From the NCBI GenBank assembly GCA_021160245.1, contig JAGHCW010000120.1, positions 1-30,073 on the forward strand: a stretch of DNA of 30,073 nt. The letters run 5' to 3'. Below, piece by piece: positions 6,387-29,811 of this stretch. Every line of letters starts with the position of its first letter. Within the stretch, counting starts at the first letter, position 1. The notes under the pieces were generated by a model. The model saw only the letters and a program-made list of their open reading frames with translations, made no database searches and had not been told where the DNA came from. The position numbers and the translations under genes are program-made. The DNA comes from a bacterium (GTDB lineage: Bacteria; B130-G9).

Positions 6387-6390
6387 ATGA
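6298..6390 (+). CDS. Candidate 30-aa leader ORF overlapping the giant protein gene
   Basis: ATG at 6298 is preceded by GAGG 4 nt upstream and the frame runs 30 codons to a TGA that overlaps the ATG of the next gene (ATGA, 6387-6390). The peptide contains two adjacent cysteines (DYDCCFKN) and no recognisable domain. If translated, it would couple translation of the large secreted protein to that of the leader. The overlap and ribosome site support it, but a 93-nt frame can arise by chance. Confidence 0.3.
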   Translation: MRCTFVMGRFQSFLSFMDYDCCFKNSEERL

Positions 6391-9300
6391 GAAGGACTTC
6401 TGCATCGAGTGTCATTTTAGCGGTAGGAGCGTGTTTCATCCTATTCATATCTGCCGCTTTCGCACAAACCGCAGCCGGAGGCGCATGGCCTACGCTTCAC
6501 ATGGACAATCAGAATTCGCGTACAACATCTGAAGTAGGTCCTGACATTACCAGTCAGAACCTAACCGTGCAGTGGCGTAACCCGTGGCTGTACAATCCAA
6601 ACGCTGAACCGGCGCCAACTTACGATCCTGCCGAAGTAGGATGGGGCAGGTCCAATCCTCTTATCGACGGCAACGGTCGCATTTATGTTATGGGCACGAT
6701 ATCGGGAGATGGGCCACTTGGCCCGCACGAAGATCATCTGCTTGTCTGTTTGGAGGAGACAATTGAGGAGGAGACCGACTGCTCAATACCCTCCTATGTG
6801 TGGAGTACCGAAATACCGGGCTCTAGTTCATACGATCCTGCCACATGGTCCACCGGAGCGCTGAGTCCAACCGGTGACAAGCTCTTCATCGCCGCTTTAG
6901 CAGGAGGCTTGATTGGCGATGTTCTTGTTCTTGACTGCTATGACACGGACGGCGACCCAGACAATCCCGGCGATCCGCTTCTTATCTTCTCAATCCCATT
7001 CATAGGAGGTGGAGATAGCGCCTCAGACTTGATCATTGATGAAGCCGACAACCGCATCTATGTGTTTGGCAATAACGGCGATAACACCGTTGGATACGGC
7101 TTCACATACGACGGGGAGATTGCTTGGCAATATGGTTACGAGCTTATGGCAGGCTATGACCCACTGGGTGACATCTCGGCGTCACCTGTAACCTACGATA
7201 CATCCGGCGGAATGGGTCAATATACATATAAGGACCCAGACTTTCCTGGCTACCAAAACTTGGGCATGTGCAAAACGCTCTATGCCCCGGGTGAAGACGG
7301 CACGCTATATGCCATGCATACGGTTATGGGCACGGTATGGACTGAGGCGCCGAATCCTGCGCCTTACGCCGAACCGCCCGATGTCCAATTGAAGTGGGCA
7401 CGGAGTCTAAGTGCCGAACCATTGGTCAGCTCGCCCCACGTGATTCCGCGAGCGTGGCTGATACAAGAGGATTTGGCTGATGGGACGGGAACGGACCCGG
7501 ATAATCCGCCATTATACAATAGGACTGGAACGACGTCCGCCACAGTCTATATCTGCACGCAGGAAGGCGTAATCTATTGCATCGAGGACTCAAATTGGAT
7601 CGAGCACGATTGGCAACCAGGGATGGACCCCGAGGGTCCTCCGTGGATCGACGTAAAGTGGACTCCTGGGAACGAGGATTATGAGCCGAATCAGCACTAT
7701 ACTAGCTCAATTCGATGGGAGCTTGACCTGGGCTCTCCGATCGCGGCAACGCCCATCATCTCAAACAATACGCTCTACGTAGTTGATGAGACTGCTCTTT
7801 ACGCAATCGATCTCACGACAGGCACCGATATACCAGGAGGCCTTGGGCTCACGGAGGGTCAGGTTACTTGGACTGCCTCCAGCGAGGGGCCGCCTGATGA
7901 TGAGTGGGACTTCACCGCACATCCAGATCTCGGCGTGGCTCCATCACCTGTTCTGGACGGCAACGGCCTTATATGGCTCGTGACGAGTGACGGTTGGCTT
8001 CATGTCGTCTGCGCCACACCGAATCCAGACATCGGCCTTGAACCGGGCGAGATAGCATTCCATTACTTCACGGCAGATGCTCCTGACACCGACCATCGCG
8101 GCGACGAGAACGCCCCGTTCTATAGACCGCCACCATATTACCCAGCTAGTCCAGTAAGCCCACCCGTCTCCGAGTCTGAGCCTCTTGACATGGTCTGCTC
8201 GCCGATTATCTCCGGCGGCTTTATCTACGTTCGAGGCCAGGGCATCGGTGATGACCCAGAGTATCCACGCGACACGGGTTGGATATACAAAATCAAAGAA
8301 AATGTCGTCGGGCGTTATAGATTCCAGACCGTCGATCCTGTATATGGCTATACTGAGAATAACAGGATGGGCCGCGCCCGCACCGCCTTCACATACGACG
8401 CCGACTATTACGATCCGGATTGCGGCGCGAAAAGCACATACAACGATCCTGTCCCGGATCCTGCGAACAGCATAATTCTTTACATAGACGGCGCTCACAC
8501 AGGCTGGTTGCAGGAGCTACTGCCCGGCTTTTTCGTCCCATATCACATCGACCCGGACAACCCCAACCCCCAGAATGAGAGCGGAGTGGGTGAGACGCCT
8601 TACGGGACATGGGAAGGTATGGTTTATCAAATCGACTCCGGCGATGATGATCGTCGTCTTGGACACTATATGTACAAATCAGATGGAGCGATATCCGAGA
8701 CTTTCGTGCCCAAGGAGTACATCTATTACAACCAGAATGGCAGGTACAACTTCTTCTGCGAGACTGCCGACGGTTTCGGCCTAAATGCCCCGTTGGTCTC
8801 GGAGGTGTTCCCTGGACCAAACATGTGCCCCGAGCTCTATTTCGTCAAGACGGACGTCATCTTCGACGGGACCATTGCCAGAGTGCCCAAGACAATTCTT
8901 GACCTTGGGGTGTGGTATTACGATTCTGATGAGGATTCCCCCATAGCGGCCGACCATAGATTGCTCTATCTTGATAATGTTCCTTACCCCATGAACCGCG
9001 ACATGGTCAACAGCAACGAATCCCAAACGTGGGAAGATAGGTACTCAGTCCATCTAGCTACATCAAACGATACCCCTGGCTTCCACTTCGAGTTCACGGA
9101 CGAGCCCCAGACTGTCTATAACGACCTCACCAGAAACGAGGCGCACGCTTGCACATCGAGGCTTCCCGAGTATGGACAGCTCTTCACGATGACATTGAGG
9201 GATACAAAGGTCACTCCAGCGGTTGGCGCGCCCGGAATGTTCACATATAGCGCTAGATTCTTCGATCCGAAGCGCCGCAACACCGGAATCAATACGGGAG

Positions 9301-12300
9301 TTGAGGGTTCTCTTAATGCTAACGTTTTTATAGATGGCATGAGATACAATATGATTCTCAAGCCTGGGAATGGCTCCCAGTTTGATGGGCTTTACACCGT
9401 CGAGGTCGAGTTCCTCGACTATGGCGAGCACAGTTTCCGGTTCGACTTCAACTATGAAGGTAGCATGCCTTCTTACAATGACCCACGAAGCAACGGCCAG
9501 CTGACCTCCGCTGATGGTACGGAGGTTGAGCAGAGGGTGGTTATTGACAGGGCCTCGGCGCCGCAGTTCGAATACATCGGCCCGACCATCTCGCCTTGGC
9601 CTTCGTTCAACAGGTATCAGGACAACAACTCCCTCGATCCGCTGGAACTGGGACCATCGATTCCGAATCTGACCACTCTGAATATCGGTCAGCCCATAAA
9701 GGGCACGCCGGTCGTTGGCGGAGCGCTCGAAACGATACAAGACGGCGGAACAGAATCCACCGTCTATGTAGGCTCAAGGGATGGCGTTGTTTACGCAATA
9801 TCAACCGATCTTGACCAGTCCAATCCCATAAAGTGGCAATACAATACAGGCGATTTCGTCGATTGCACCCCAGCGCTCGGCCAAGAGGGCAGCCTGGTTG
9901 TTGCATCCAGAAATGGCTATGTCATCAGCCTCGACTCAGCAACGGGTGAGTTTAGGTGGCTCTTCAGCGCTGCGAATATCGCCGACAGCTCCCCATGTGT
10001 GGGTGTTAATGGTAATGTTTACATCGGCTCCTATACCGGAACGTTCTACTCGATTAATGGCCGGAGAGGAACGCTGAATTGGTCATACGACCTACCAAGC
10101 GGAGGCGCCGTCCAGTGTTGTGCAGCGCAAGGAACGGGTAGTACGTTGTACTTCACATCCTATGACAACTACGTTTACGCTCTTAACTCCGATGGCACGC
10201 TGCTGTGGACGCATAAGACTGGTGGACTGCTCAACAGCTCGCCCGCAGTGGAGACCAATGGCAACACTGACACGCTTTACGTCGGTTGCGACGACTATAA
10301 CTTGTATAGACTCGACTATGACTTCTCGCTTCCAGGGGCCCCTGAGCCTGTGGAGGTTTGGAGATACGAGACTGGTGGTAGGATAGCATATTCATCTCCG
10401 GCGGTTGACGACGATTTCGTCTATATTGCCTCGGACGCTCTGTATGCTATCGATAAGAATACAGGCCAGCTGGAATGGTCTTATGTTCCGGAGGGCGACA
10501 TCTTTGGAACCGTTGCGGTTGACGCTGCAGGTGTGGTCTATTTCGGCTCGAGCGACGCAAAGCTTTACGCTGTTCATGCCCCCGTCAACCTCGCCAATAT
10601 AGAGTCCAAGCAGGGCGAGCTTTTGTGGTGGCAGCGAGTTGGCAGCGAGATATGGGTATCGGGAACCTCCATAGCCCCAACATATCTTGACCAGGGCGAG
10701 GATTATCCCCTCGCCGATCAGGCAGCCTACGGGCAGATATTCTTCGGGTGCTGGGACGGTAAGCTGTATAATATCTCCAACAGGGAGGTCAACATTCCGC
10801 CTGAACTCACAAACCATACGCTTTCACCCTCTATCGGTGACAGCTCTCAGGCATTCCGATTTGGGATCCATTACTTTGATGCGAACGGGGATGAGCCGCT
10901 CTTGAGAAACATATACATCGATGACATCCCCTACGAGATGACCTTCACCGGCATCGGCTATCCTGCAGCCGGAGAATATGAGTTCTACGCTGACTTCGAT
11001 CTAGGCAAGGGAACTCACACTTACTACTTCGAGTTTGCAGATGGCAACTGGGCCGGAAGCGCCTCAGTCTATCTGCCGATCGATGCGCCGGATAGCCAAT
11101 ATACAGGCCCCGTCGTTGACAACAAACCGCAGTTGTCTGAGGCAGGTGTTGACCCACAATACGGCGATTTTGAGCAGGAGTTTGTCTTCTCTGTCCTATA
11201 TCAGGACCCGGATGATGACGTTCCATTGTCGGGCGTTGTCGTGATAGACGGGGTAAATTACACCCTCACGGGGCCTTCCGGCGCAGAAGAGACACCTTTC
11301 AATGGAGTTTATACTTTCACAACAACGGGGCGAACTCTCGGCATCGGAGACCACACGTTCCATTTTGAGTTTGAGTACGCTGTCAACGAGTGGGTCAAGA
11401 TACCGGTTGTCGGCCAGATTCAGGATCTGACTGTCAACAATTCCCCGCTACTTCAAGACAACTTCGTTAATCCACCTAGTGCAGACGCATCAACCGATTT
11501 CACTTACTCGGTGCATTACGCTGACGAGGACAACCACCCGCCAGCCGTCAAGAATGTCGTCATTGACGGCGTTGCGCACAGCATGTCGCTCTACAGCGAT
11601 TTCGACTCCGATGGAACCTACCGTTACACGATTTCAGGAGATTTGATCGGTTACGGAGCTCACATCTACTATTTCGATTTCCAGGACACCCAAGGCGCTC
11701 GAGTTATTCTTCCGGCGCCTCCGCTTGAGCCTTTCAACGGACCTGCTGTCAATGCGGTGCCAGAGCTTACGAATGGACAGGTTTCTCCCATCTCGGGAGA
11801 TGCGGATGTTGACTTCATCTTCTCCGTTAATTACGGCGATGCTGACGGCATTAGACCTGACGAGGTGGTCCTGGTGCTTGATGGCAATCGATATGATATG
11901 ACACTTGAGCAGGGCATACTCACCGACGGTCTCTATGCGAGAACAATGAACGGCGCGAGCATCGGGCTTGGCGACGATCACTCATACCATTTCGAGGCGA
12001 CTGACGATTCGGACAGTCAGACGAGATTCCCGATTGGCGCGAGCGGCGAGATAAGCGGTCCAGCGATTGTTGAGCCGGGCATATACATCCCATATTGGCA
12101 GGTCAACAGGGCACAAGGACTCGACACAACGTTGGTCGTATGCAATACAGGCGCCAGCCAGCTTGCAGCTGCTGTTGACGTGAATATCCACCTCTATTCT
12201 GGGCTTCTTGGTGATGAGATAGACACGATCTCTCACACCATAGCGGCCGGCGAACAAGTCAAGGTCGATTTCTCCGACCGCTTCGCTGATCCGCTCAGCC

Positions 12301-13946
12301 ATTTCGGCTGCGCCAAGATTAGCTGGGACCGCGGTTCAATAGGCGTCTGGGCCATGATACAAAATGGCGACGCTCAGGCCGTATCAATGACGCTGAAGGA
12401 CCCACAGATTCGGACTTCATATTTGCCATATTGGCAGGTATCAAGCGAATCAACCATCGACACTCTACTCGCCATAAGCAACATAGGTGGATCGCCCGTT
12501 GACCTCAATTTGCGGTTCTACAACTTCTCAGGAAGTGAAATCGGAGCTACGACGGTAACTATTCAGCCGAGGGCCCTCCGTCCGATCTACGTGAGTGCTC
12601 TGGTTTCAAACCCAGAATCGGAGGGCTCTGCTGTCCTCACCTGGGAGCGAGGTGTTCTGGCGGTCTGGGGCATGATTGCGGGCGAGACAGGTAAAGCCTA
12701 TGAAGTGGCCTTTAATCAGCCATTTACCGGCAATATTGACCTGCCATACTGGGTGCGCAGTTCTTCTGGAGCGACCCCATTCAGGAGCCCATCAGCCATC
12801 GACCCGAACATCATCGGTAGATCGAGCAACGCAATTGGTGACACGAGCATTAGAAGCCTTGTTGCTAGAACACTCTCAGTGGATTCCAAGAAAGACGCCA
12901 GTCACTCAATGCCGCATCCCGTAGAGAAGGCTCTGCCGACAATCGGAGGTTTCGCGGAATCTAGGCCCAGGGATGTTCTCCCGCCGGTCAACAACTCAAC
13001 CAAGCGAGGCTCAGCTCCTGAGCTATTTGAGTTTGATTGGGAGCCGCATTTAGCCACGACTCTTGACCCGATTACTTTCTACATCAATTACAGCGATGTA
13101 GATGAGGACCCACCGGCTGAAGCGTCGATCTACATTGACGATGTTAAGCATGAGATGTCCCTGCAAGAGGGTGTTAGCTATGACGGTCTCTACTCATATC
13201 AGACCTTCCTGCAAGCCGCTCTTGTTCCGCCTCACAGTATCTTCTTCATCTTCAGCGATGGTGAGCATACAGTGCGTTTCCCGATAGAATCGTACTACAC
13301 AGTCGCTGTTTCAGAGGGCACGGAGGCACTGGACACCTGGCTTGTCGTAACCAATCTGACAGAAAACACCGCGCCGGCAATTGTGAGCCTAATGGATCAA
13401 AACGCTGAGATTGTAGCTAACCCGCAGATGCAGCTTGCTGGACTCTATAGAACCGGAATGATGCTATTCAGCGAATCATCTGTGCCACAAGGCTTCGGTA
13501 GCGGCATCATATCGCTAGGAATTGCGGAGCCGGTGATGAGCGTCTGGGGCATAGTCTATAGCGAGACATTCGACACAGGATACGCGCTGAACCTCGACGC
13601 GAACCACAGCAAGTCATTGTACGTCCCATACTGGTCAATCAACGATGAGTACGGCGTGCACTCCTGGATGGCCATTACTAATCGAGGCGAAGAGATGGGT
13701 GTGGTTACAGTAACATTAGCCGATTCGGAAGGCTCCTTTGTGGGCTTTGAGACTCAGGAGATTCACCCGAACAATATGTGGTTCTTTGATGTGAGAGATG
13801 CCCTATTCGATAGATCGACCAAGATATCTGGCCGCGCAACGATCATTTGGGAAGAGGGCGATTATCTCCTTTATGGAGCAATCTCCGATCTCACCAACCG
13901 GACCAGCTACCCGCTCAGCTTCATCCAGCCGAAGATACATAGGTAG
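6387..13946 (+). CDS. Giant secreted PQQ-propeller / Ig-like repeat protein (2519 aa)
   Basis: A Sec signal peptide (RR start, hydrophobic core, AFA-QT cleavage near residue 27) indicates export. Residues about 30-635 form a first PQQ-like beta-propeller (opening AWPTLHMDNQNSRTT, with TVYICTQEGVIYCI-type blades). Residues about 820-1030 hold two Ig-like units. A second propeller spans about 1069-1468 with repeated 'SSPAV...LYVG...YAID' blades. Four Ig-like repeats of about 105 residues start near 1471, 1581, 1686 and 1791, each with P-LTN/SP, DPDDD-type acidic turns and 'IDGV-Y-M' strands. Four C-terminal 'PYW' repeats start near 1900, 2013, 2118 and 2411; the third is split by a linker and another Ig-like domain (about 2211-2300). 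There is no membrane anchor or LPXTG motif. Likely a cell-surface or extracellular binding protein; no catalytic site is recognisable. ATG 6387 has GAGGAGAGG upstream, and a terminator follows the stop. Confidence 0.88.
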   Translation: MRRTSASSVILAVGACFILFISAAFAQTAAGGAWPTLHMDNQNSRTTSEVGPDITSQNLTVQWRNPWLYNPNAEPAPTYDPAEVGWGRSNPLIDGNGRIYVMGTISGDGPLGPHEDHLLVCLEETIEEETDCSIPSYVWSTEIPGSSSYDPATWSTGALSPTGDKLFIAALAGGLIGDVLVLDCYDTDGDPDNPGDPLLIFSIPFIGGGDSASDLIIDEADNRIYVFGNNGDNTVGYGFTYDGEIAWQYGYELMAGYDPLGDISASPVTYDTSGGMGQYTYKDPDFPGYQNLGMCKTLYAPGEDGTLYAMHTVMGTVWTEAPNPAPYAEPPDVQLKWARSLSAEPLVSSPHVIPRAWLIQEDLADGTGTDPDNPPLYNRTGTTSATVYICTQEGVIYCIEDSNWIEHDWQPGMDPEGPPWIDVKWTPGNEDYEPNQHYTSSIRWELDLGSPIAATPIISNNTLYVVDETALYAIDLTTGTDIPGGLGLTEGQVTWTASSEGPPDDEWDFTAHPDLGVAPSPVLDGNGLIWLVTSDGWLHVVCATPNPDIGLEPGEIAFHYFTADAPDTDHRGDENAPFYRPPPYYPASPVSPPVSESEPLDMVCSPIISGGFIYVRGQGIGDDPEYPRDTGWIYKIKENVVGRYRFQTVDPVYGYTENNRMGRARTAFTYDADYYDPDCGAKSTYNDPVPDPANSIILYIDGAHTGWLQELLPGFFVPYHIDPDNPNPQNESGVGETPYGTWEGMVYQIDSGDDDRRLGHYMYKSDGAISETFVPKEYIYYNQNGRYNFFCETADGFGLNAPLVSEVFPGPNMCPELYFVKTDVIFDGTIARVPKTILDLGVWYYDSDEDSPIAADHRLLYLDNVPYPMNRDMVNSNESQTWEDRYSVHLATSNDTPGFHFEFTDEPQTVYNDLTRNEAHACTSRLPEYGQLFTMTLRDTKVTPAVGAPGMFTYSARFFDPKRRNTGINTGVEGSLNANVFIDGMRYNMILKPGNGSQFDGLYTVEVEFLDYGEHSFRFDFNYEGSMPSYNDPRSNGQLTSADGTEVEQRVVIDRASAPQFEYIGPTISPWPSFNRYQDNNSLDPLELGPSIPNLTTLNIGQPIKGTPVVGGALETIQDGGTESTVYVGSRDGVVYAISTDLDQSNPIKWQYNTGDFVDCTPALGQEGSLVVASRNGYVISLDSATGEFRWLFSAANIADSSPCVGVNGNVYIGSYTGTFYSINGRRGTLNWSYDLPSGGAVQCCAAQGTGSTLYFTSYDNYVYALNSDGTLLWTHKTGGLLNSSPAVETNGNTDTLYVGCDDYNLYRLDYDFSLPGAPEPVEVWRYETGGRIAYSSPAVDDDFVYIASDALYAIDKNTGQLEWSYVPEGDIFGTVAVDAAGVVYFGSSDAKLYAVHAPVNLANIESKQGELLWWQRVGSEIWVSGTSIAPTYLDQGEDYPLADQAAYGQIFFGCWDGKLYNISNREVNIPPELTNHTLSPSIGDSSQAFRFGIHYFDANGDEPLLRNIYIDDIPYEMTFTGIGYPAAGEYEFYADFDLGKGTHTYYFEFADGNWAGSASVYLPIDAPDSQYTGPVVDNKPQLSEAGVDPQYGDFEQEFVFSVLYQDPDDDVPLSGVVVIDGVNYTLTGPSGAEETPFNGVYTFTTTGRTLGIGDHTFHFEFEYAVNEWVKIPVVGQIQDLTVNNSPLLQDNFVNPPSADASTDFTYSVHYADEDNHPPAVKNVVIDGVAHSMSLYSDFDSDGTYRYTISGDLIGYGAHIYYFDFQDTQGARVILPAPPLEPFNGPAVNAVPELTNGQVSPISGDADVDFIFSVNYGDADGIRPDEVVLVLDGNRYDMTLEQGILTDGLYARTMNGASIGLGDDHSYHFEATDDSDSQTRFPIGASGEISGPAIVEPGIYIPYWQVNRAQGLDTTLVVCNTGASQLAAAVDVNIHLYSGLLGDEIDTISHTIAAGEQVKVDFSDRFADPLSHFGCAKISWDRGSIGVWAMIQNGDAQAVSMTLKDPQIRTSYLPYWQVSSESTIDTLLAISNIGGSPVDLNLRFYNFSGSEIGATTVTIQPRALRPIYVSALVSNPESEGSAVLTWERGVLAVWGMIAGETGKAYEVAFNQPFTGNIDLPYWVRSSSGATPFRSPSAIDPNIIGRSSNAIGDTSIRSLVARTLSVDSKKDASHSMPHPVEKALPTIGGFAESRPRDVLPPVNNSTKRGSAPELFEFDWEPHLATTLDPITFYINYSDVDEDPPAEASIYIDDVKHEMSLQEGVSYDGLYSYQTFLQAALVPPHSIFFIFSDGEHTVRFPIESYYTVAVSEGTEALDTWLVVTNLTENTAPAIVSLMDQNAEIVANPQMQLAGLYRTGMMLFSESSVPQGFGSGIISLGIAEPVMSVWGIVYSETFDTGYALNLDANHSKSLYVPYWSINDEYGVHSWMAITNRGEEMGVVTVTLADSEGSFVGFETQEIHPNNMWFFDVRDALFDRSTKISGRATIIWEEGDYLLYGAISDLTNRTSYPLSFIQPKIHR

Positions 13947-21441: not shown

Positions 21442-21642
21442 ATGAATGATATAAGCAAATCGTCCGAAACAGAGCTGCTTCAGGACCTATGCCGTAAATA
21501 TGGCATTGATGCGAAGGTTGTGGAGGAGCTCATCAAGATCGGGAAGCAATTCCAACGCATGGAGCGCAGGCACGGCATCTATGATGAGCTCCGTCGATGC
21601 ATTCGTGACAGCATTGATGCGAGAGAGAATGAGGTCCGATGA
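21442..21642 (+). CDS. Small acidic/basic helical protein, first gene of Dnd-like cassette
   Basis: 66 residues, helical and highly charged (ELLQDLCRKYGIDAKVVEELI; QFQRMERRHGIYDELRRCI), with no signal peptide or membrane segment. It resembles the short proteins that accompany DndD-type DNA-modification cassettes, but I cannot assign a function. ATG 21442 has AGGAG 8 nt upstream. A GTG 13 codons earlier (21403) has no ribosome site. Its TGA overlaps the next ATG by 4 nt (ATGA), so it is coupled to the winged-helix gene. The 134 nt before it, after rmd, should carry the cassette promoter, though no clear boxes were seen. Confidence 0.65.
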   Translation: MNDISKSSETELLQDLCRKYGIDAKVVEELIKIGKQFQRMERRHGIYDELRRCIRDSIDARENEVR

Positions 21643-22262
21643 GCACTGAAGAGACCGCATCTGAGCTTAAGACCAAAGCTCTGGAGGCTATAGAACTCTT
21701 GGCTACTGTGATCGACGACATCGAGCAACGGATGAACTCCGTGGATGATGTCGATGCAAAGAGAGCTCAGTTGAAGGAGATCTCTCGATCCATAGAGCAA
21801 TTGGAGAATAAGAACATTGCCGTCCCCGATGTCCTACGGCACCTCAAAACAACCCTCGTAACCGAACTCACCGCCGCGGATGAACCTAGGGATGTGATGC
21901 TCGAAATCGGCAAGGCACTGACAGAAATATTCCGACCCATGGAGGGACTAGGCCTAACGAGCAGGACTAAACCCAAGCGGAGTCGCCGGGGGTCATCGGC
22001 ACCAATCACGTCCGACTCAGTTTTGCGGCAGCTCATCATCGACGCCCTGCTTTCTTATGGTGGACGCGCACGCAGTCGGGATGTCCTGAAGTGGATTGAA
22101 GGGAAACTGGAGGGGCAATTCACACCTCGCGATCTGGAAACGCGGATGGACGGACGAACTTTGGTCTGGAAAAACAACGTACAATGGCAGCGCGCCATCA
22201 TGGTTCGCGAGGGCGTATTGAGGAGTGATTCGCCCACGGGAATCTGGGAACTGAATGAGTAG
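21639..22262 (+). CDS. Winged-helix protein A of Dnd-like cassette
   Basis: 207 residues in two parts. Residues about 8-105 are helical with a coiled-coil look and contain KRAQLKEISRSIEQLE, VPDVLRHLKTTLV and LEIGKAL. A basic linker TKPKRSRRGSS (about 111-121) leads to a C-terminal winged helix (about 127-206) ending QRAIMVREGVLRSDSPTGIW, the pattern of Mrr-N-type winged helices found in restriction and defence proteins. No nuclease motif is present. It is paralogous to the next gene along its whole length, pointing to a heterodimer or two-specificity DNA reader. GAGG lies 4 nt before ATG. Role as target recognition or adaptor is inference. Confidence 0.7.
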   Translation: MSTEETASELKTKALEAIELLATVIDDIEQRMNSVDDVDAKRAQLKEISRSIEQLENKNIAVPDVLRHLKTTLVTELTAADEPRDVMLEIGKALTEIFRPMEGLGLTSRTKPKRSRRGSSAPITSDSVLRQLIIDALLSYGGRARSRDVLKWIEGKLEGQFTPRDLETRMDGRTLVWKNNVQWQRAIMVREGVLRSDSPTGIWELNE

Positions 22263-22268
22263 GGACAA

Positions 22269-22898
22269 ATGAACAAGCAGGACAACCTATCTGACCTCAA
22301 ATCAGTGGCGTTTGAGGCATTGGATTCGCTGGATGCTTCTATCCGCGAGATTTCTGAACGGGCGAGAACGATGCCAGAAGAGGCAGAGAAGAGGGCGCAA
22401 TTGAAGGCTGTTTCACAATCCATCCACCAATTGGAGGGCATTGGCATCCCGGTTCCCGATGAACTTCGGCATTTGAGAACGACACTTGTTTGCGAGCTGG
22501 AGGTAGCCGACACGCCCCGGAAGATACTACTTGAGATAGGTGAAGCTCTGAAGGAGTTGATGGCTCGCCTGGACAGTCTGGGAATGGCGGGGAGGCACCG
22601 GCGCAGTAGAAACCGTGGCAGCTCGGATGAAGGTATAACCCCAATTGAGACACTCAAAGAACATCTTCTGCAGGCGATTCGAGCTCTAGGAGGAAGGGCT
22701 CATCCCAAGGAGATTCTGGATTGGATAGAGGAAGAACATGGAAATGACTTCTTGCCGGGCGACCTCGAGGTGCGACCCAGCGGCAGCAAAGCGTGGCACC
22801 AGAGGGTTCATTACGCGCGTTACAGAATGGCCCAAAAGGGTATCTTGAGAAGGGACTCACCCGTTGGTCTATGGCAGCTGACGGAGGACCATAGTTGA
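22269..22898 (+). CDS. Winged-helix protein B of Dnd-like cassette
   Basis: 209 residues, a paralogue of the preceding protein. Shared signatures include KRAQLKAVSQSIHQLE, VPDELRHLRTTLVCEL, AD-PR, LEIGEALKEL, a basic linker RHRRSRNRGSS, and a C-terminal winged helix ending RYRMAQKGILRRDSPVGLWQ. The N-terminal helical domain probably dimerises and the C-terminal domain probably binds DNA (family-level inference). The gene starts 6 nt after the previous stop with AGGG upstream. Its TGA overlaps the ATG of the SMC-like ATPase (TGATG), indicating coupled translation. No catalytic motif is visible. Confidence 0.7.
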   Translation: MNKQDNLSDLKSVAFEALDSLDASIREISERARTMPEEAEKRAQLKAVSQSIHQLEGIGIPVPDELRHLRTTLVCELEVADTPRKILLEIGEALKELMARLDSLGMAGRHRRSRNRGSSDEGITPIETLKEHLLQAIRALGGRAHPKEILDWIEEEHGNDFLPGDLEVRPSGSKAWHQRVHYARYRMAQKGILRRDSPVGLWQLTEDHS

Positions 22899-24922
22899 TG
22901 CGATTACTTAAGCTCGTCATTGAGAATTACAAGTGTTTTAAGGGACCGACCGAGATCGACTTCACGGCCGGGCGTGTTGAGCCGGGCAGAAACATCTTCC
23001 TGATCGGCGGCATGAACGGCGCAGGCAAGACTGCGATCATGGAGGCGATAAACATCTGCCTCTATGGAGCGAAGAAGACAGTCATCCATGAGCGGATAAA
23101 CGACAACCAGCGGAATAAGCAGAATGCCAGATGTTCAATCGAACTCTGTTTTGAAACAGACGGTGCCGTCGAATGGACGGTCAAACGGTCCTGGGTCTCA
23201 CATGGCCTTTTCCCTCCACCGAGCGCAAATCAGCTCAATGAGAATCTCGCGGTGGTTGTTGGCGGCAAGAAAACATCAGGCATGAGTGAGTCGCGCTGGG
23301 CTGACATTCGAGACACAATAATCCCCAAGACTGCCGCCCAATTCTTCTTCTTCGATGGCGAAAAGATTCAAGAGATGATGGCGGATGAGCGCTCAGAACA
23401 GACTCTAAAGGACTCGATGGAAGCGGTCTTGGGAATTGCTGTGATACGAAAACTGATCAAGGACATGAAGAATATCCTAAAGGAAGAACGAGACAATAGA
23501 CCTCCCACCTCAGAAAAAGACATAAATGTGGAGAGAAAGCAGCTTGAGGCGCTTGAGGCCAAGCTCGCCAAGAAAACTGAACTCATTGAGCAAGCGAGAG
23601 ATGATATCAACGAGTTCCAGTCTGAGCTCGTCGCGCTCGATAAGACTTTCAACGACAAGTTTTCCCCGGACCAGAAGAGTCAGGAGAAGCGCGACAAGTT
23701 GAGGCGTCAGGAGGCGCGTCTGGAGAGCCGGCGCCACGAGATCGATAAAGAAATCAAGGAGTATGCTGAGCACACTCTGCCGCTATCGCTGCTCATTGGG
23801 TATTTCCCGGAATTGCGAAGGCAGCTCGACGCAGAGCGGAGGGTTGTCAGAAGCGCGGCAGTTCAGGACGAGGCGGACTCGCTTGCTACGGCAATCGTTG
23901 AGGCGACTGCGCGTCCCGAAACGGTCTGTTGCCATCGCGAGATGAGCCATTCGGCGAGGGAGGAGCTCCGCAATCGAGTGCTGGCGGTGCTTCGTGGTCT
24001 TCCGGATGAGGCCGAGCAGTCTGGCAAGCCGCTGGAGCTGTTTCAGCTGTCCGCTGCAGATGCGACTCGAGTCTCAGACCGTCTAGCCGAAATCGAAAGA
24101 GATGGTCCATCCCGGTTTAACTCTCTCTTAATGGAAAAGGAGGATATCGCCTCCAAGCTGGAGAATATCAAGGAAGAGGTCCGGAAGGCGTCAATCGCCG
24201 ATTCGGACAAGAATGATTTCACGAAACTCCAGTCCGACATCAAGAGCTATTCGGCCCAATTGAGCAGACGAAGTGATGAAAGGAGTCGCTTGATTGACGA
24301 ACATCGCAAGATAGAGGAGCAGATCGAAGACCAACAGCGGAAGTTGGATACGCTTTACAGAGATTTTGCTGCGACGAAGGAGCACAAGGCATTCATCACA
24401 CGGAGCCAAACTCTCATCAACCTTCTCAACGAGTACCTCGATCTGGTGCGCAAGAGCAAAGTGGCAACGCTACAGGAGCGTACCTTTGAGATGTACCGCC
24501 GGCTGGCAAGCAAGAGCGACCTTATCAGGAGTGTTGAGATAGATTCTGAATCGTACCGCATTGCTATCAGAAACGTTATGGGGCACGACGTGGCCAAGCA
24601 TAATCTCTCCGCTGGTGAGAAGGAGGTTTTCGCGATTTCGCTGCTCTGGGGGTTGGCGCAAACTTCTGAATTGAAGCTCCCTGTAGTGATTGACACGCCA
24701 CTCTCAAGGCTTGATAGCATGCACAGAGATAGAATCGTAGCCGACTATTTTCCAAACGCCGCGACTCAAGTGATTGTGCTTTCAACCGACACGGAGGTGG
24801 ACAGGTCATACTTCAGCAGGCTTGAGCCGGATCTTCAGAACACGATTAGCCTGCAATTCGACAAGGCGCGGAAGCTCACGACCATTGAGGAAGGCTACTT
24901 CTGGGAGCAACCATATGGCTGA
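22898..24922 (+). CDS. dndD: DndD-like SMC/Rad50-type ATPase
   Basis: 674 residues with the layout of DndD, the ATPase of DNA phosphorothioation: N-terminal 'VIENYKCFKGPTEIDF' strand pair, Walker A G38-MNGA-GKT45, Q-loop region FFFFDGEKIQEMM, long coiled-coil arms (about 165-320 and 380-520), ABC signature LSAGEKE at 570-576, and Walker B VVIDTPLSRLD with D599. ATP-driven clamping on DNA is expected. Known DndD works with DndC and DndE at modification sites. The hinge, where DndD/Rad50 relatives often carry a CxxC zinc hook, shows only adjacent cysteines C344-C345 (TVCCHREMS). ATG 22898 overlaps the previous stop; GGAGG lies about 10 nt upstream. RecF- or Rad50-like DNA repair is the alternative. 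Confidence 0.82.
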   Translation: MRLLKLVIENYKCFKGPTEIDFTAGRVEPGRNIFLIGGMNGAGKTAIMEAINICLYGAKKTVIHERINDNQRNKQNARCSIELCFETDGAVEWTVKRSWVSHGLFPPPSANQLNENLAVVVGGKKTSGMSESRWADIRDTIIPKTAAQFFFFDGEKIQEMMADERSEQTLKDSMEAVLGIAVIRKLIKDMKNILKEERDNRPPTSEKDINVERKQLEALEAKLAKKTELIEQARDDINEFQSELVALDKTFNDKFSPDQKSQEKRDKLRRQEARLESRRHEIDKEIKEYAEHTLPLSLLIGYFPELRRQLDAERRVVRSAAVQDEADSLATAIVEATARPETVCCHREMSHSAREELRNRVLAVLRGLPDEAEQSGKPLELFQLSAADATRVSDRLAEIERDGPSRFNSLLMEKEDIASKLENIKEEVRKASIADSDKNDFTKLQSDIKSYSAQLSRRSDERSRLIDEHRKIEEQIEDQQRKLDTLYRDFAATKEHKAFITRSQTLINLLNEYLDLVRKSKVATLQERTFEMYRRLASKSDLIRSVEIDSESYRIAIRNVMGHDVAKHNLSAGEKEVFAISLLWGLAQTSELKLPVVIDTPLSRLDSMHRDRIVADYFPNAATQVIVLSTDTEVDRSYFSRLEPDLQNTISLQFDKARKLTTIEEGYFWEQPYG

Positions 24923-26435
24923 GCGCCTACTAATAACATCCTCTGAGAGCGCCAGGATTTTGAATGACCTGAGATATGCAACGAAGCTCGAATTCGTGGC
25001 GCTCGCGCGTCTTGCACTCGGATTTTCTCTCAAAATGAGCGGATGCAATGTGCCCGAGTCTCGGGATTTCTCAGGGAATAAAATCCACAGAGAAGGCCTT
25101 TTTGGCAAAGATCTGTCGGTTTTCCGGAGCCTTGTTCGTTCAATTTACCAAGATCCCTTTGAGGACGATGACGGGTTTTTCTCGAGGCGCTCAGTCTGCA
25201 AGGACCACATAGATAATGGCCTGGCCCTGCTTGGTCAGATATTTGAGGAGTGTGGTCGAAATGCAGACGCCTTCTTTCAGAAGCTGGCGGCAGAGATTCC
25301 GTCAGGCCCCAGCCCGACCGCAGGCGGAGTAATTCCGCATCTGAACATTGAGGTCGGCAAGGACCTTAGGAACAAGCCTGTTGTTCTTGAGATCAACAAT
25401 ACGGCGCGTCATCCGAACCCGCACATGGCGATTATGGGCAAGTCAGGCGCGGGCAAGACCCAGATTCTGCTCAAGATTCTGGCCGATATTCGCAAACAAT
25501 CAGGATTCCAGACGAACTTCATCCTATTTGACTACAAGGGTGACATTGTCTGTCAAGAGCGATTCATCGAGGTTTGCCGGGCCGCGAAGTACTCCCTCCC
25601 GAAGGATCGATTGCCAGTGAATCCGTTTGTCTTGGAGGATTACGGCGAGCAGTCCGTTCTCATCTCTGCGCGTGAGAAGGCGGAATCCTTCGCGTCAATC
25701 AATCGCAAATTTGGTGTCGTTCAAATGGGCAACCTAACAAGGGCAATCGAACGCGCCTATAGCCAGCGGTCCGATGAGCACTTGCGATTCCCCGATTTCC
25801 GCGAGGTTCTAGCGATTGTCGAGGATATGTACGAAGAGAGAAACCCGGACACGCTTACCCAGGTGCTCACGGATCTCTCCAGGTTCTCCTTGTTCTGGGA
25901 GCACGGTGGCGAAGATGTGCCTATCGAGCATATTTCAGAGCAAACGGTCGTCATCGACTTGCATGAGCTGCCGGTTCTCAAGGAACTGGTTGCCTACCTG
26001 GTTATTGAGCGCCTTTACAAGGAAATGTCGGCCCTGCCCGACAGTCAAACAGTCGGAGATAGACGCGAGATAAGAACCATTCTGGTCATTGACGAGGCGC
26101 ACAATTACATAGGTCAAAACAATCCATTCCTTCAGAAGATCGTGCGCGAGGGTCGCTCAAAGGGCATAGCGGTCTTCTTCGCCTCGCAGTCGCCAAGTGA
26201 CTATGAGCAGAAGTTCTTCGATTTCAAGGAGCATTTGGAGTTCTCGCTCATCATGGGATGTAGCGTGAAGTCCCGCTCCGCCGTTCAGAATCTCATTGCA
26301 TGTAACTCGCAGACGGCTAAGCAGTTGCAGGTGAATCTGGCCCACTTGAACACGTTTGAGGTCATTTCAAAGGCCCTCGGGGAGGATAGGGACTACACGC
26401 AGTTCACTGCCATCCCATTCTACGAGGCATACTAA
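24915..26435 (+). CDS. DndE-like domain fused to HerA/FtsK-type ATPase
   Basis: 506 residues. Residues about 1-130 resemble DndE (DUF1832), the small helical subunit of phosphorothioation complexes (SSESARILNDLRYATKLEFVALARLALGFSL). Residues about 150-500 form a DUF87/HerA-like ATPase: Walker A G175-KSGAGKT182, Walker B ILVIDEAHNYI with D393-E394, GRSKGI and the sensor-type FFASQSPSD. HerA-like ATPases are hexameric DNA pumps acting with nucleases or modification enzymes. The fusion would tether a DNA-translocating motor to the DndE module. ATG 24915 lies inside the end of dndD (8-nt overlap). A GTG at 24774 in the same frame would overlap dndD by 149 nt and lacks support. No NurA-like nuclease is adjacent. 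Confidence 0.75.
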   Translation: MAERLLITSSESARILNDLRYATKLEFVALARLALGFSLKMSGCNVPESRDFSGNKIHREGLFGKDLSVFRSLVRSIYQDPFEDDDGFFSRRSVCKDHIDNGLALLGQIFEECGRNADAFFQKLAAEIPSGPSPTAGGVIPHLNIEVGKDLRNKPVVLEINNTARHPNPHMAIMGKSGAGKTQILLKILADIRKQSGFQTNFILFDYKGDIVCQERFIEVCRAAKYSLPKDRLPVNPFVLEDYGEQSVLISAREKAESFASINRKFGVVQMGNLTRAIERAYSQRSDEHLRFPDFREVLAIVEDMYEERNPDTLTQVLTDLSRFSLFWEHGGEDVPIEHISEQTVVIDLHELPVLKELVAYLVIERLYKEMSALPDSQTVGDRREIRTILVIDEAHNYIGQNNPFLQKIVREGRSKGIAVFFASQSPSDYEQKFFDFKEHLEFSLIMGCSVKSRSAVQNLIACNSQTAKQLQVNLAHLNTFEVISKALGEDRDYTQFTAIPFYEAY

Positions 26436-26523: not shown

Positions 26524-26900
26524 AGAGCAGGGAGGGCGGCCGCTGGCGCGTTTTTGCGCGCTGGAGGAAAGTCCGGACTCCGAAGGGCAGGGCGCTGGGT
26601 AACACCCAGGAGGGGTGACCCTACGGAAAGTGCAACAGAGAGCAGACCGCGAATTCGCTTATTTATAGCGAACGCAAGGGTGAAACGGTGAGGTAAGAGC
26701 TCACCAGCGGCCCGGGTGACCGGGTCGGCTTGGTAAACCCCGCCCGGAGCAAGACTAAACAGGGGGGATTGAGCGCTGCCCGCGCGAGCCCCCGGGTGAG
26801 TCGCACGAGGCGCCGGGCAACCGGCGTCCCAGATAAATGGCCGTCGCCCGTTGAGCGTGAATCGCCTGCGGGAACAGAATCCGGCTTATATCCCTGCTCT
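26524..26900 (+). ncRNA. rnpB: RNase P RNA, bacterial type A
   Basis: Catalytic RNA of RNase P, which trims tRNA 5' leaders. The conserved blocks occur in order: GAGGAAAGTCCGGAC (P4 5' strand), the ACAGAGAGCAGACCGC block, GGTGAAACGGTGAGGTAAGAG, CGGCTTGGTAAACCCC, AGATAAATGGCCGTCGCC and the 3' ACAGAATCCGGCTTAT. The ends are set by P1: AGAGCAGGGA (26524-26533) pairs perfectly with TCCCTGCTCT (26891-26900). The 3' end lies only 8 nt from the stop codon of the converging gene, so no separate terminator space exists. Confidence 0.96.
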
Positions 26901-26908
26901 GACGCCTA

Positions 26909-28462
26909 TTAACGGACTGCAGCTGGCCTTCGGGGTCTGGCCACGCCGCCTTTTCTCTTCAGATGGAAGCCCTCCAAGTAAAGGTCTCCCACATCGATAC
27001 GGTTGTCCGAGCGATAAGAGAATATCCCAAGATCAACAAAGTAGTTCAGGAGATTGCCGGGGCGCGTTTCAGGAGGCACATTACGCTCTCCTGACCACTT
27101 GATTCCCTGTAGCACTCCGAGGAAACGTTTTCGATCTCCCGGGACGAGAAGGCCCCTCCCCTTGAAGCTCTCCCTGACAGTCCTTATCCAAGGGAACTCC
27201 TCCTCGGCTAACTCGTTGACTCTATACTCCGACACTTTATCCAGGGCGCCACGGAGTGCCGTGTAATGTATTAGATTACGCGAATTTTGCGCCCTTCTGT
27301 CCCTGATCTCGAACTCAGCGGCTTCCTCGATAAGTAGAAGCAGAGGCCGGGGGTAGATTCGCGCAAAACCATCCTTCAGATGATTCGGCATCCAGGTAAG
27401 GGTACGGCCCCTCCTGGGGTCCTTCCCCATGTATTCTCCGAACATCCGAACGACAGCGGCTTTGTATCCCTCTTCGTCAGAGACCTGAGGGAGCCGGCCC
27501 AAATCTGCGTGGGAAGAAAACACGAGCTTATCGCTCTTGATAGTCGCAAGCGGCAGCTTCATTTGCTTTGAGACAGCTGGCTTGAGGTAGTCATAGAACA
27601 GGTCATTGTTTAGCAGCCGCTTGAAGAGCACGCCGTAGAACTCAGGAACGCTCCAAATCAATTCGGCTCTATTCGATGCTATCTTCGCGATATCCGGACC
27701 AGACTGAGTAACCTCCCTGTAGAGGTCCCTCCGCAAGAATATTTTCGGCCTTATGTGCCTTAAGCGCCTCATATAAGCCCAAAAGTGGACTAATCCTTCA
27801 AGAACAATTCTCAGGGATTCCCATTCGCCAGTGGTCATCCGATCCAGATAGTCATAGGAGACGAATACGAAGTCGCTCCTTTCCCGAAGGTTCTCATCCA
27901 AGCTATCGAGTGCCGCGTAAATAGTCGCTAGGTTTTCCTCAATCTGTTGAACCAGCGCGTTAAGGTCCCATTTTTTGCATAAGATTGCACGAACCAGCGA
28001 ATTCGGTAAGGCTGACTCGCGAATCAATTCGTTCTCAATGAGAACTCTGAGAAGCAATCCTAGCCACAACATACGGAGGTCAGATGGTTTCTTCCCATCA
28101 GCGAAGTGTGTTACAATCTCGCCTGGTGGGAATGTCTTTTCAGCATCATCATATCCGACTAGCCACTTGGTTCTCCGAACGTCTGGTGCAGAGAGATTCT
28201 TCTGTCGGGCCAGCTCCACAATAGCACTCCGACCTTTGTCATTCTGCAGAGCGCGGAATAGATGCGTCTTCCCAGAGCCTTTGTCCCCGATGATGAGTCG
28301 CACATCCGGATCGAGAACCCGAAAGTGAGCTCGGATGGGCACAAAGGTCTTGAGAAAGGTCTCGGGGTCTTCAGACTCGCTCTCGGCCTGACCCTTATGA
28401 CAAAGATCGATTAGGCTCTGGAGCAGAACTTGTCGTTGCTGGTCATTCAACCGCCTACTCAC
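26909..28462 (-). CDS. P-loop NTPase, third gene of MinD-like operon
   Basis: 517 residues, cytoplasmic. The N-terminus carries a clear P-loop, LIIGDKGSGKTHLF (Walker A G59 to T66), and a Walker-B-like strand FVFVSYDYLDRM near 199-209. The layout recalls the STAND/KAP-like or 'Sll1717-type' P-loop proteins linked to defence, but the family cannot be fixed by eye. The C-terminal third (about 370-517) has no recognised domain; it is basic at the very end (LKRKGGVARPRRP). GTG start 28462 overlaps the stop of the upstream MinD-like gene by 4 nt (GTGA), with GGAG 9 nt upstream. It probably works with that ATPase in one complex. It converges with rnpB, 8 nt away. Confidence 0.7.
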   Translation of the reverse strand: MSRRLNDQQRQVLLQSLIDLCHKGQAESESEDPETFLKTFVPIRAHFRVLDPDVRLIIGDKGSGKTHLFRALQNDKGRSAIVELARQKNLSAPDVRRTKWLVGYDDAEKTFPPGEIVTHFADGKKPSDLRMLWLGLLLRVLIENELIRESALPNSLVRAILCKKWDLNALVQQIEENLATIYAALDSLDENLRERSDFVFVSYDYLDRMTTGEWESLRIVLEGLVHFWAYMRRLRHIRPKIFLRRDLYREVTQSGPDIAKIASNRAELIWSVPEFYGVLFKRLLNNDLFYDYLKPAVSKQMKLPLATIKSDKLVFSSHADLGRLPQVSDEEGYKAAVVRMFGEYMGKDPRRGRTLTWMPNHLKDGFARIYPRPLLLLIEEAAEFEIRDRRAQNSRNLIHYTALRGALDKVSEYRVNELAEEEFPWIRTVRESFKGRGLLVPGDRKRFLGVLQGIKWSGERNVPPETRPGNLLNYFVDLGIFSYRSDNRIDVGDLYLEGFHLKRKGGVARPRRPAAVR

Positions 28463-29811
28463 GAAAGCGCTCTCCCGACTCGCTCCAGAAGGAGCCTCGC
28501 GAAGTTCTTGAAATCGCCTTCTGAAAGAAGGTCTGCGATATCTCGAATATTCTCTGCGTCCTTGATGATTGGATTGAATCCAATTAGAATCGGGAAATGT
28601 GGCTTAGTTGTTGTATCCATTGAAGGAAGCGGATGCCTTATCTCGTCCTCTGCGTCTTCCTCTGCGTCCTCCTCGTCATAGTAGTTCGTGCTGAGCAATT
28701 CGTAAGAACGGTCGAGGAAACGCTCAAACTGGTCTTTGCGTTTTTCTCCAGGGGCAGGCGCCATGGCAAATACAAGGGCACAATCGAGCTGCTTCTTATC
28801 TCTCTCGATTAGGTCACGACCCAAGAAGCGAACTACCAGTTCCATGCCTCGCCAGCTCTGCTCGTTGCTCAGACCAAACAGAACATCCAGATGTGACATT
28901 CCCGAAAGCGCCAAGCCACCCAAGTCATGGAATCCCGCTCGTGAGTCAATGAGGATGTAATCGACATCCCTTTCTGATCTTATATGTTTGAGAAGCTCCT
29001 TTAGAGGCAAGAACCCTGGTCTTTCCCCGGGCATAGGGGCATAGAGCGCCTCGTAGTCAATGCGGGCGAGCTTCTCGAGGTAGTATTCGTCAAGCTTGCC
29101 TGCAGGAAAAACCGTAATTGGGGGACCGTCGGCGACAACTATCTGATCATCAACGACATGGCAATAATCAGAAATGTCCATGCTCCCTCTTGACTCAAGA
29201 ATGGAGCTTTCCAGAAGAAAATCGACAACACCGTATTCAGCGACCTGGCCGTCCGCGCCAGGTAGCAGCGATGAAAGACCAGGCGCCTCAAGATCAAGGT
29301 CAATCACCGCGACTTTCTTGCCGCTTCGAGCGAGCTGGATGGCGAGTGACACCAACGCGGTTGTGCGCCCAACTCCTCCTTTGAAGGAGTAAAAGGACAG
29401 AACTGGCGGGGTGTGCTCATTGAGAGGCCACGGTTCGTTCAGAGGCGGATTGAACCACGACGCCTTCGAGATGTGGCGGTCAAGAATCTTGATCTCAGGC
29501 TGACCGTAGTCAATGGTTTCTGCATGTTTCCATGCCTGTTCATAGACAGCCTCTTCGGCCTTGGATGAGTCCTCAGACCACACCCATATCTCGTTCTTCC
29601 AGAAGGGGCCCGCGGCACTCTGAAGAATTGCCAAGACGGCTTCTCTTGCCTTCTCGACGTTATTCTTCTCGTCGATTTTCAACAGGACTCGCAGAATGCC
29701 CTTGATGTCCCATATAAGGCAGACACGCGATACGCCTGCATCCGCTAAATCGGATTTCTTCTGGAAAATTCCATTCTGAACATCCCGTCGGGCTTCACTG
29801 AAATGCTTCAT
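28459..29811 (-). CDS. MinD/ParA-like ATPase with extra N-terminal domain
   Basis: 450 residues. A deviant Walker A, FKGGVGRT (residues 143-150), is followed by VIDLDLEAPGLSSLL (170-183) and a Walker-B-like YILIDSRAG (285-292), as in MinD/ParA-type SIMIBI ATPases with R in place of the second K-flanking residue. Residues 1-135 form a separate alpha/beta domain that I do not recognise. An acidic run (YYDEEDAEEDAEDE, about 347-360) is encoded by a short tandem repeat. Unlike plasmid ParA genes there is no parB neighbour or partition site, so a signalling or defence role is more likely than segregation. GGAG lies 8 nt before ATG. Overlaps of 4 nt with both neighbours place it in the middle of a three-gene operon. 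Confidence 0.75.
   Translation of the reverse strand: MKHFSEARRDVQNGIFQKKSDLADAGVSRVCLIWDIKGILRVLLKIDEKNNVEKAREAVLAILQSAAGPFWKNEIWVWSEDSSKAEEAVYEQAWKHAETIDYGQPEIKILDRHISKASWFNPPLNEPWPLNEHTPPVLSFYSFKGGVGRTTALVSLAIQLARSGKKVAVIDLDLEAPGLSSLLPGADGQVAEYGVVDFLLESSILESRGSMDISDYCHVVDDQIVVADGPPITVFPAGKLDEYYLEKLARIDYEALYAPMPGERPGFLPLKELLKHIRSERDVDYILIDSRAGFHDLGGLALSGMSHLDVLFGLSNEQSWRGMELVVRFLGRDLIERDKKQLDCALVFAMAPAPGEKRKDQFERFLDRSYELLSTNYYDEEDAEEDAEDEIRHPLPSMDTTTKPHFPILIGFNPIIKDAENIRDIADLLSEGDFKNFARLLLERVGRALS

Follow-up and report, generated by a model that had tools for sequence, protein, structure and literature searches.

Genes and products of the cassette

The stretch of DNA analysed here (30,073 nt, referred to as the window) is the entire contig JAGHCW010000120.1 of assembly GCA_021160245.1, which comprises 3.43 Mb in 244 contigs and is 94.8% complete. 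Between positions 21442 and 26435, the plus strand of the window carries a cassette of five intact and tightly linked open reading frames (ORFs), among them relatives of DndD and DndE (Table 1). The first two ORFs overlap by 4 nt (ATGA), the second and third are separated by a gap of 6 nt, the third and the DndD gene overlap in TGATG, and the DndD and DndE-HerA genes overlap by 8 nt. For DndD, the ATG at 22898 is the likelier start codon, and a TTG at 22895 is also possible. The cassette is flanked upstream by gmd-like and rmd-like genes and downstream by rnpB. A preliminary description of the window had listed a 66-amino-acid (aa) protein, two winged-helix paralogues, a DndD-like structural maintenance of chromosomes (SMC) ATPase and a DndE-HerA fusion between these unrelated flanks, and gene identities, junctions and flanks were all confirmed. 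Scans for promoters and terminators gave results no better than those obtained with shuffled sequences.

Table 1. Positions of the cassette genes, of other features of the window, and of features in loci of relatives (locus:positions).
Feature	Position	Strand	Basis
Sp-DndD small protein P0001, 66 aa	21442..21642	+	PF20306 6.3e-12; DndC profile positions 395-464
Reader-type accessory protein 1, P0002, 207 aa: N-terminal helical module and C-terminal Mrr_N winged helix	21639..22262	+	Mrr_N 2e-5, below gathering; family alignment
Reader-type accessory protein 2, P0003, 209 aa, Mrr_N winged helix	22269..22898	+	Mrr_N 7.9e-7, at gathering; BLASTP paralogy; AlphaFold2 model
DndD-family ATP-binding cassette (ABC) ATPase with coiled coil, P0004	22898..24922	+	TIGR03185 385 bits; PADLOC DndD 441 bits; motif check
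DndE-HerA fusion, P0005, 506 aa: DndE at about residues 2-107, HerA/FtsK translocase at about 141-506	24915..26435	+	hhalign to DndE; 7ES4 superposition; motifs
rnpB	26524..26904		RF00010, 324 bits
Two overlapping genes past rnpB	26909..29811	-	PADLOC candidates PDC-M28C (249 bits) and PDC-M28B (230 bits)
2519-aa ORF	6387..13946	+	PQQ_2, Beta-prop_ACSF4
DarT ADP-ribosyltransferase and macro-domain gene pair in the variable slot	L016:4067-5757; L021:5469-7160; L062:7665-9356; L014:5386-7022		
N6/N4 methylase and TdeIII restriction enzyme preceding the Sp-DndD-to-DndE-HerA module	L033:4556-10001		
Protein of about 215 aa after DndE-HerA	L021:11553-12200; L013:10001-10627; L044:5925-6557		
Consecutive genes for DndC, small protein, DndD and DndE-HerA	L127:6237-11364		

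P0004 scores well above the cut-off of the DndD profile TIGR03185 (246 bits) and is about equally near to the DndD and PbeC profiles. In a motif check over 51 sequences its Walker A, signature and Walker B motifs were found to be intact, and no Zn hook was present, i.e., no CxC/CxxC pair occurs at the aligned middle of the coiled coil (VCCHREMSHS in the window, EPEPI-Y in the clade of its close relatives). The HerA part of P0005, whose Walker motifs are likewise intact, superposes on the C-domain of DndH (7ES4) with a Z score of 42.4 and 2.2 Å over 356 residues; the matches listed in this structural comparison are confined to HerA (model residues 139-506), and the assignment of the DndE part rests on profiles. 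As a single sequence the N-terminal domain matches DndE weakly (TIGR03184, 2.8e-4). Its family profile compared to seven DndE proteins reached 97.6% in hhalign (P 3e-12), whereas a control block from the middle of HerA reached 0.4%. The relationship of the SMC ATPase and the fusion protein to DndD and DndE is thus upheld by profile searches. A match of P0005 to PADLOC mad8 (80 bits) lies in the HerA part, with a score comparable to those that P0005 obtains for DndH. In case of P0002, a marginal coiled-coil match to JetC of the Wadjet-type SMC defence was obtained (E 0.012), with JetA, JetB and JetD not among the PADLOC matches listed. An N-terminal extension of DndD in a related locus (L010) was considered as a fused Sp-DndD and rejected, as no profile supports it.

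The 66-aa protein P0001 belongs to PF20306 (Sp-DndD) and matches DndC profiles only over 50-60 positions close to the C-terminus of these profiles. When 13 small proteins of the close clade were combined into a profile, hhalign placed it on the C-terminal part of DndC (97%, P 8.6e-11, 54 columns). In 386 genomes spread over the domain, PF20306 matched six long ORFs, besides the window and one further genome (G184); five of these six are DndC, and in all five the small-protein profile maps to the C-terminal end, the reading frame of one (L123) being split. The sixth, a thiamine-pyrophosphate enzyme (L126), was discarded as a false positive. In Rhizobium phaseoli and Methylobacterium, the small-protein domain is a separate ORF located beside a DndC that is about 100 residues shorter. 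Judged from these profile comparisons, P0001 and the C-terminal domain of DndC are homologous; a DndC-related piece is present in the cassette without the catalytic part. As a DndC C-terminal domain that forms a polypeptide of its own, Sp-DndD is probably an adaptor that docks to DndD. The "disordered small protein" of Dnd and Pbe loci would thereby gain a concrete identity.

In the genome to which the window belongs, this 66-aa ORF was the sole match to DndC (TIGR03183), DndB was not found, and PAPS_reduct (PF01507) yielded nothing above cut-off; the positive controls were found in 14 of 14 reference genomes. Cysteine desulfurases of the IscS type are general housekeeping enzymes and are uninformative with respect to the role of DndA. 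The preliminary description had the cassette lacking dndB and dndC, and in agreement with this no DndC, DndB or PAPS-reductase-type enzyme was detected in the cassette or elsewhere in the genome, but the claim has to be amended in so far as the small protein is itself homologous to a part of DndC.

The two winged-helix proteins P0002 and P0003 are 42% identical (BLASTP). The AlphaFold2 model of P0003 (predicted local distance difference test score 89) shows a winged helix preceded by three long helices at the N-terminus; a Foldseek search returned weak winged-helix matches only, none of them at E 0.001 or better. In an alignment of 22 members of this family the N-terminal module is conserved, and 13 members end in an Mrr_N and five in a RAMA domain, with RAMA matches of up to 1.7e-17, above gathering. 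Their family names connect Mrr_N with the Mrr restriction enzyme, which is modification-dependent, and RAMA with adenine methylases. The exchange of Mrr_N for RAMA supports, at the level of domain composition, a role of the accessory proteins as modification readers without proving it, so that the reader function suggested for the winged-helix pair in the preliminary description gains indirect support but no proof. A genome scan with both winged-helix proteins, which make poor search patterns, found no relatives. In about nine of the related loci, the gene after DndE-HerA encodes a protein of about 215 aa; by eye this protein resembles the N-terminal module of the readers, and it has no firmly assigned C-terminal domain.

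Gene neighbourhood in close and distant relatives

Five of the 386 genomes, including that of the window, contain a DndE-HerA-like match at 1e-15. Close relatives were gathered from GTDB genomes by similarity to P0005 via one conserved motif, VIDEAH[NR][YI]. About 60 close DndE-HerA loci with 49-56% identity were obtained from at least ten phyla, namely Pseudomonadota, Thermodesulfobacteriota, Bacteroidota, Bacillota, Planctomycetota, Chloroflexota, Acidobacteriota, Cloacimonadota, Kiritimatiellota, Myxococcota, and others. Their gene order is an HSDR_N-N6_Mtase fusion of about 920 aa (PF13588 1e-22, PF02384 1e-38), HsdS (PF01420), a variable slot, Sp-DndD, zero to three readers, DndD, and DndE-HerA. 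Considering the 35 loci with at least 6 kb of upstream sequence, HsdM-like sequence occurs in 31 (over 2 kb in 28), HsdS in 31, and Sp-DndD in 34. In 28 aligned fusions the D and ExK residues of the nuclease are conserved and the NPPF motif of the methylase is invariant. An HsdR-like protein was not detected in the relatives by phmmer with one HsdR as query. This restriction-modification (R-M) coupled form also occurs in Methylotuvimicrobium buryatense 5G, a named isolate.

Due to the presence of HsdM-like sequence and HsdS in 31 of 35 loci each, the close family is, according to its gene neighbourhoods, linked to methylation and not independent of modification; a stand-alone cassette is not its usual state, and the window copy is an exception. 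DndC was found in none of 55 close-relative loci. The preliminary description had envisaged a DndD/DndE machinery repurposed as a stand-alone DNA-sensing or DNA-processing defence system. The missing sulfur chemistry stood the comparison, with no dndC in these loci and no sulfur enzyme found, but the stand-alone state did not, as the relatives normally carry the methylase and its specificity subunit.

In one locus, an N6/N4 methylase and a TdeIII restriction enzyme precede the module from Sp-DndD to DndE-HerA in place of the HSDR_N-methylase fusion and HsdS. Some loci are flanked by genes for Mrr, GmrSD, AIPR, and YhcG nucleases, as expected of defence islands. The slot between HsdS and Sp-DndD is occupied by RhuM, by DarT together with a macro-domain protein (four loci, Table 1), or by a P-loop zeta-like gene, and hence appears as a swappable accessory position.

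Genes for dndC were found only together with distant DndE-HerA proteins of about 24-30% identity, where the core of Sp-DndD, DndD and DndE-HerA lies beside a tail-less DndC. At the same distance, small cores without dndC or R-M genes nearby occur as well, either as Sp-DndD, DndD and DndE-HerA among unrelated genes (G042) or as DndD and DndE-HerA only (G112). Viral contigs yielded no close relative and a single distant one, an IMG/VR contig filed as viral on which DndC, small protein, DndD and DndE-HerA stand in a row, representing the phosphorothioation form.

Comparison with known systems

Rakesh, Aravind and Krishnan (2024; PMC10853773) described fusions of DndE to HerA/FtsK that adjoin DndD-related ATPases (HerA clade 3), as well as DndDE pairs without DndA, DndB, and DndC. 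By gene architecture the cassette of the window resembles these clade 3 fusions, a DndD-family ATPase adjoining the DndE-HerA protein in both. The main text of that article mentions no HsdM, specificity subunit or RhuM, and the coupling to a restriction-methylase fusion with HsdS, the Mrr_N/RAMA readers and the identity of the small protein as a DndC tail were not found in it. Full-text literature searches revealed no description that joins DndD-DndE/HerA with R-M coupling; Krishnan 2020 and the article on MADS lay outside their coverage. The R-M coupling of DndD-DndE/HerA may be new, with uncertain priority; the fusions and DndDE without DndC were already known.

Among established systems, MADS (methylation-associated defence system) resembles the relatives in that their restriction-methylase fusion matches MAD2 (271 bits) and their HsdS matches MAD5 (102 bits). 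Since these scores lie far below the NCBI cut-offs of 720 and 400, respectively, MADS is, as far as profile scores indicate, a relative rather than the same system. The HerA part of the relatives likewise matches a MADS profile below its NCBI cut-off. The cassette contains DndD and DndE domains, other mad proteins are not among the matches listed for seven window proteins, and MAD2- or MAD5-like genes are missing from the window. With CxC/Pbe (PbeABCD) the cassette has in common an ABC ATPase, a DndE relative, and a small protein annotated like PF20306 members (e.g., in Aurantiacibacter), but it differs by HerA being fused to DndE, by the missing Zn hook, and by the absence of the HKD nuclease-superfamily 2 (SF2) helicase PbeA from cassette and flanks. 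Type I R-M systems resemble the relatives in an HsdM-like methylase, HsdS, and an ATP-driven motor; in the relatives, however, the nuclease domain is fused to HsdM, no HsdR was detected, and DndD/DndE-HerA is the candidate motor. The HerA motor fold is common to P0005 and DptH/DndH, but P0005 contains the motor only and no other DndH domains, and neither DndF nor DndG is encoded in the cassette. Compared to DndABCDE phosphorothioation, DndD is present, DndE occurs as the N-terminal domain of the fusion, and the sulfurtransferase DndC was not found.

Interpretation of the window copy

By analogy to its close relatives, we are inclined to regard the cassette as one half, motor and sensor, of a DndD-DndE/HerA restriction system that is coupled to methylation; in the window this half would be an orphan without its methylase and specificity partner. 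In the relatives, the methylase, specificity subunit and nuclease domain presumably serve to mark the DNA of the host and to cleave foreign DNA. Recognition of the DNA sequence and its modification state would be the task of DndE and the Mrr_N/RAMA proteins, and Sp-DndD would dock DndD to the marking and cutting partner, in the relatives the HSDR_N-methylase with HsdS. DndD may scan or loop DNA, and the HerA ring would pump double-stranded DNA in place of the SF2 motor of type I HsdR, whereby unmarked DNA would be moved to the nuclease.

The DndE-HerA protein of the window is placed inside the close clade (SH-aLRT support 98 in a quick tree), near its base and with an unsettled position within it. 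A close homologue of the restriction-methylase fusion was not found in its genome; the nearest methylase matches in the methylase domain only and scores 83 bits, compared to more than 1200 bits for most clade members. It lies on another contig (C228), in a set that was read from its ORFs as a conventional type I HsdR-HsdM-HsdS system. As judged from gene content, the window copy is without its usual partner, either by loss or by branching off before the partner joined.

Several observations weigh against the restriction reading. Neither HsdM, HsdS, HsdR nor a nuclease is present in cis in the window, so that a partner would have to act in trans or the action be mechanical; most likely, a nuclease or methylase is supplied in trans, e.g., by the HsdR-HsdM-HsdS set of C228, or translocation itself causes interference. 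The C228 set, as read from its ORFs, may be such a partner, and the usual partner may also be missing from an assembly as fragmented as this one. In the same quick tree the window DndE-HerA sits on a long branch (1.43 versus a median of 0.07), which would fit relaxed constraint as well as an early lineage in which the partner was never present. The gathering of relatives by a motif represents a biased sample, the function of the window copy rests on analogy, and every mechanistic step beyond gene identity is one that we infer.

These points leave room for other explanations. Sp-DndD, DndD, DndE-HerA and the winged-helix readers might sense DNA without a nuclease or a modification partner, e.g., by looping or translocating invading DNA or by displacing its replication machinery, which comes near to the idea of the preliminary description. 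The small cores without dndC or R-M genes nearby (G042, G112), the intact motifs of the window proteins, and the failure to find a partner in the genome are in agreement with such an action; we nevertheless consider it rather unlikely, as most close relatives are coupled to the restriction-methylase fusion and HsdS, and as the cassette encodes no nuclease or other effector while a partner may act in trans. Still less probable is a decaying remnant that lost its methylase and specificity half and is now being lost itself. The missing half, the long DndE-HerA branch and degraded neighbours within the clade (a short HsdS match only in L014, a partial HsdM in L024) would fit decay, but none of the five ORFs is truncated, the overlaps between them persist, the ATPase motifs are all intact, and both reader paralogues were retained. 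Cryptic phosphorothioation by an unrecognised sulfur enzyme in trans is very improbable: DndD, DndE and a DndC-related domain are indeed present and distant DndE-HerA relatives possess dndC, but no PAPS_reduct, DndC or DndB above cut-off was detected in a genome of this completeness, and DndC is missing from all close-relative loci inspected.

Beyond the orphaned restriction half, a wider proposal can be put forward with due reserve. As the core occurs with a tail-less DndC in the distant relatives, it appears portable between chemistries. Sp-DndD, DndD and DndE-HerA might thus constitute a portable DNA motor for alternative DNA-marking modules, i.e., DndC sulfuration, the HSDR_N-methylase fusion with HsdS, or a type II R-M pair. 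The methylation form would then replace the HsdR SF2 motor and represent an undescribed ATP-dependent restriction architecture with exchangeable Mrr_N/RAMA readers, of which the window holds a free-standing copy. This proposal is possible, though we hold it more tentatively than the reading of the cassette itself. If true, DndD and DndE would not be sulfur-specific helpers but a general DNA-scanning engine paired with different self-marks; the many DndDE loci without DndC (Rakesh 2024) would be explained, and restriction enzymes would gain another kind of motor.

With regard to the remainder of the window, the flanks of rnpB in two related genomes have nothing detectable in common with those seen here, and an insertion hot spot was not demonstrated. 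Just past rnpB, two overlapping minus-strand genes match the PADLOC candidates PDC-M28C and PDC-M28B, and rnpB thus sits between two putative defence cassettes. Far upstream of the cassette, the only strong Pfam matches of the 2519-aa ORF are beta-propeller repeats at about residues 1175-1464.
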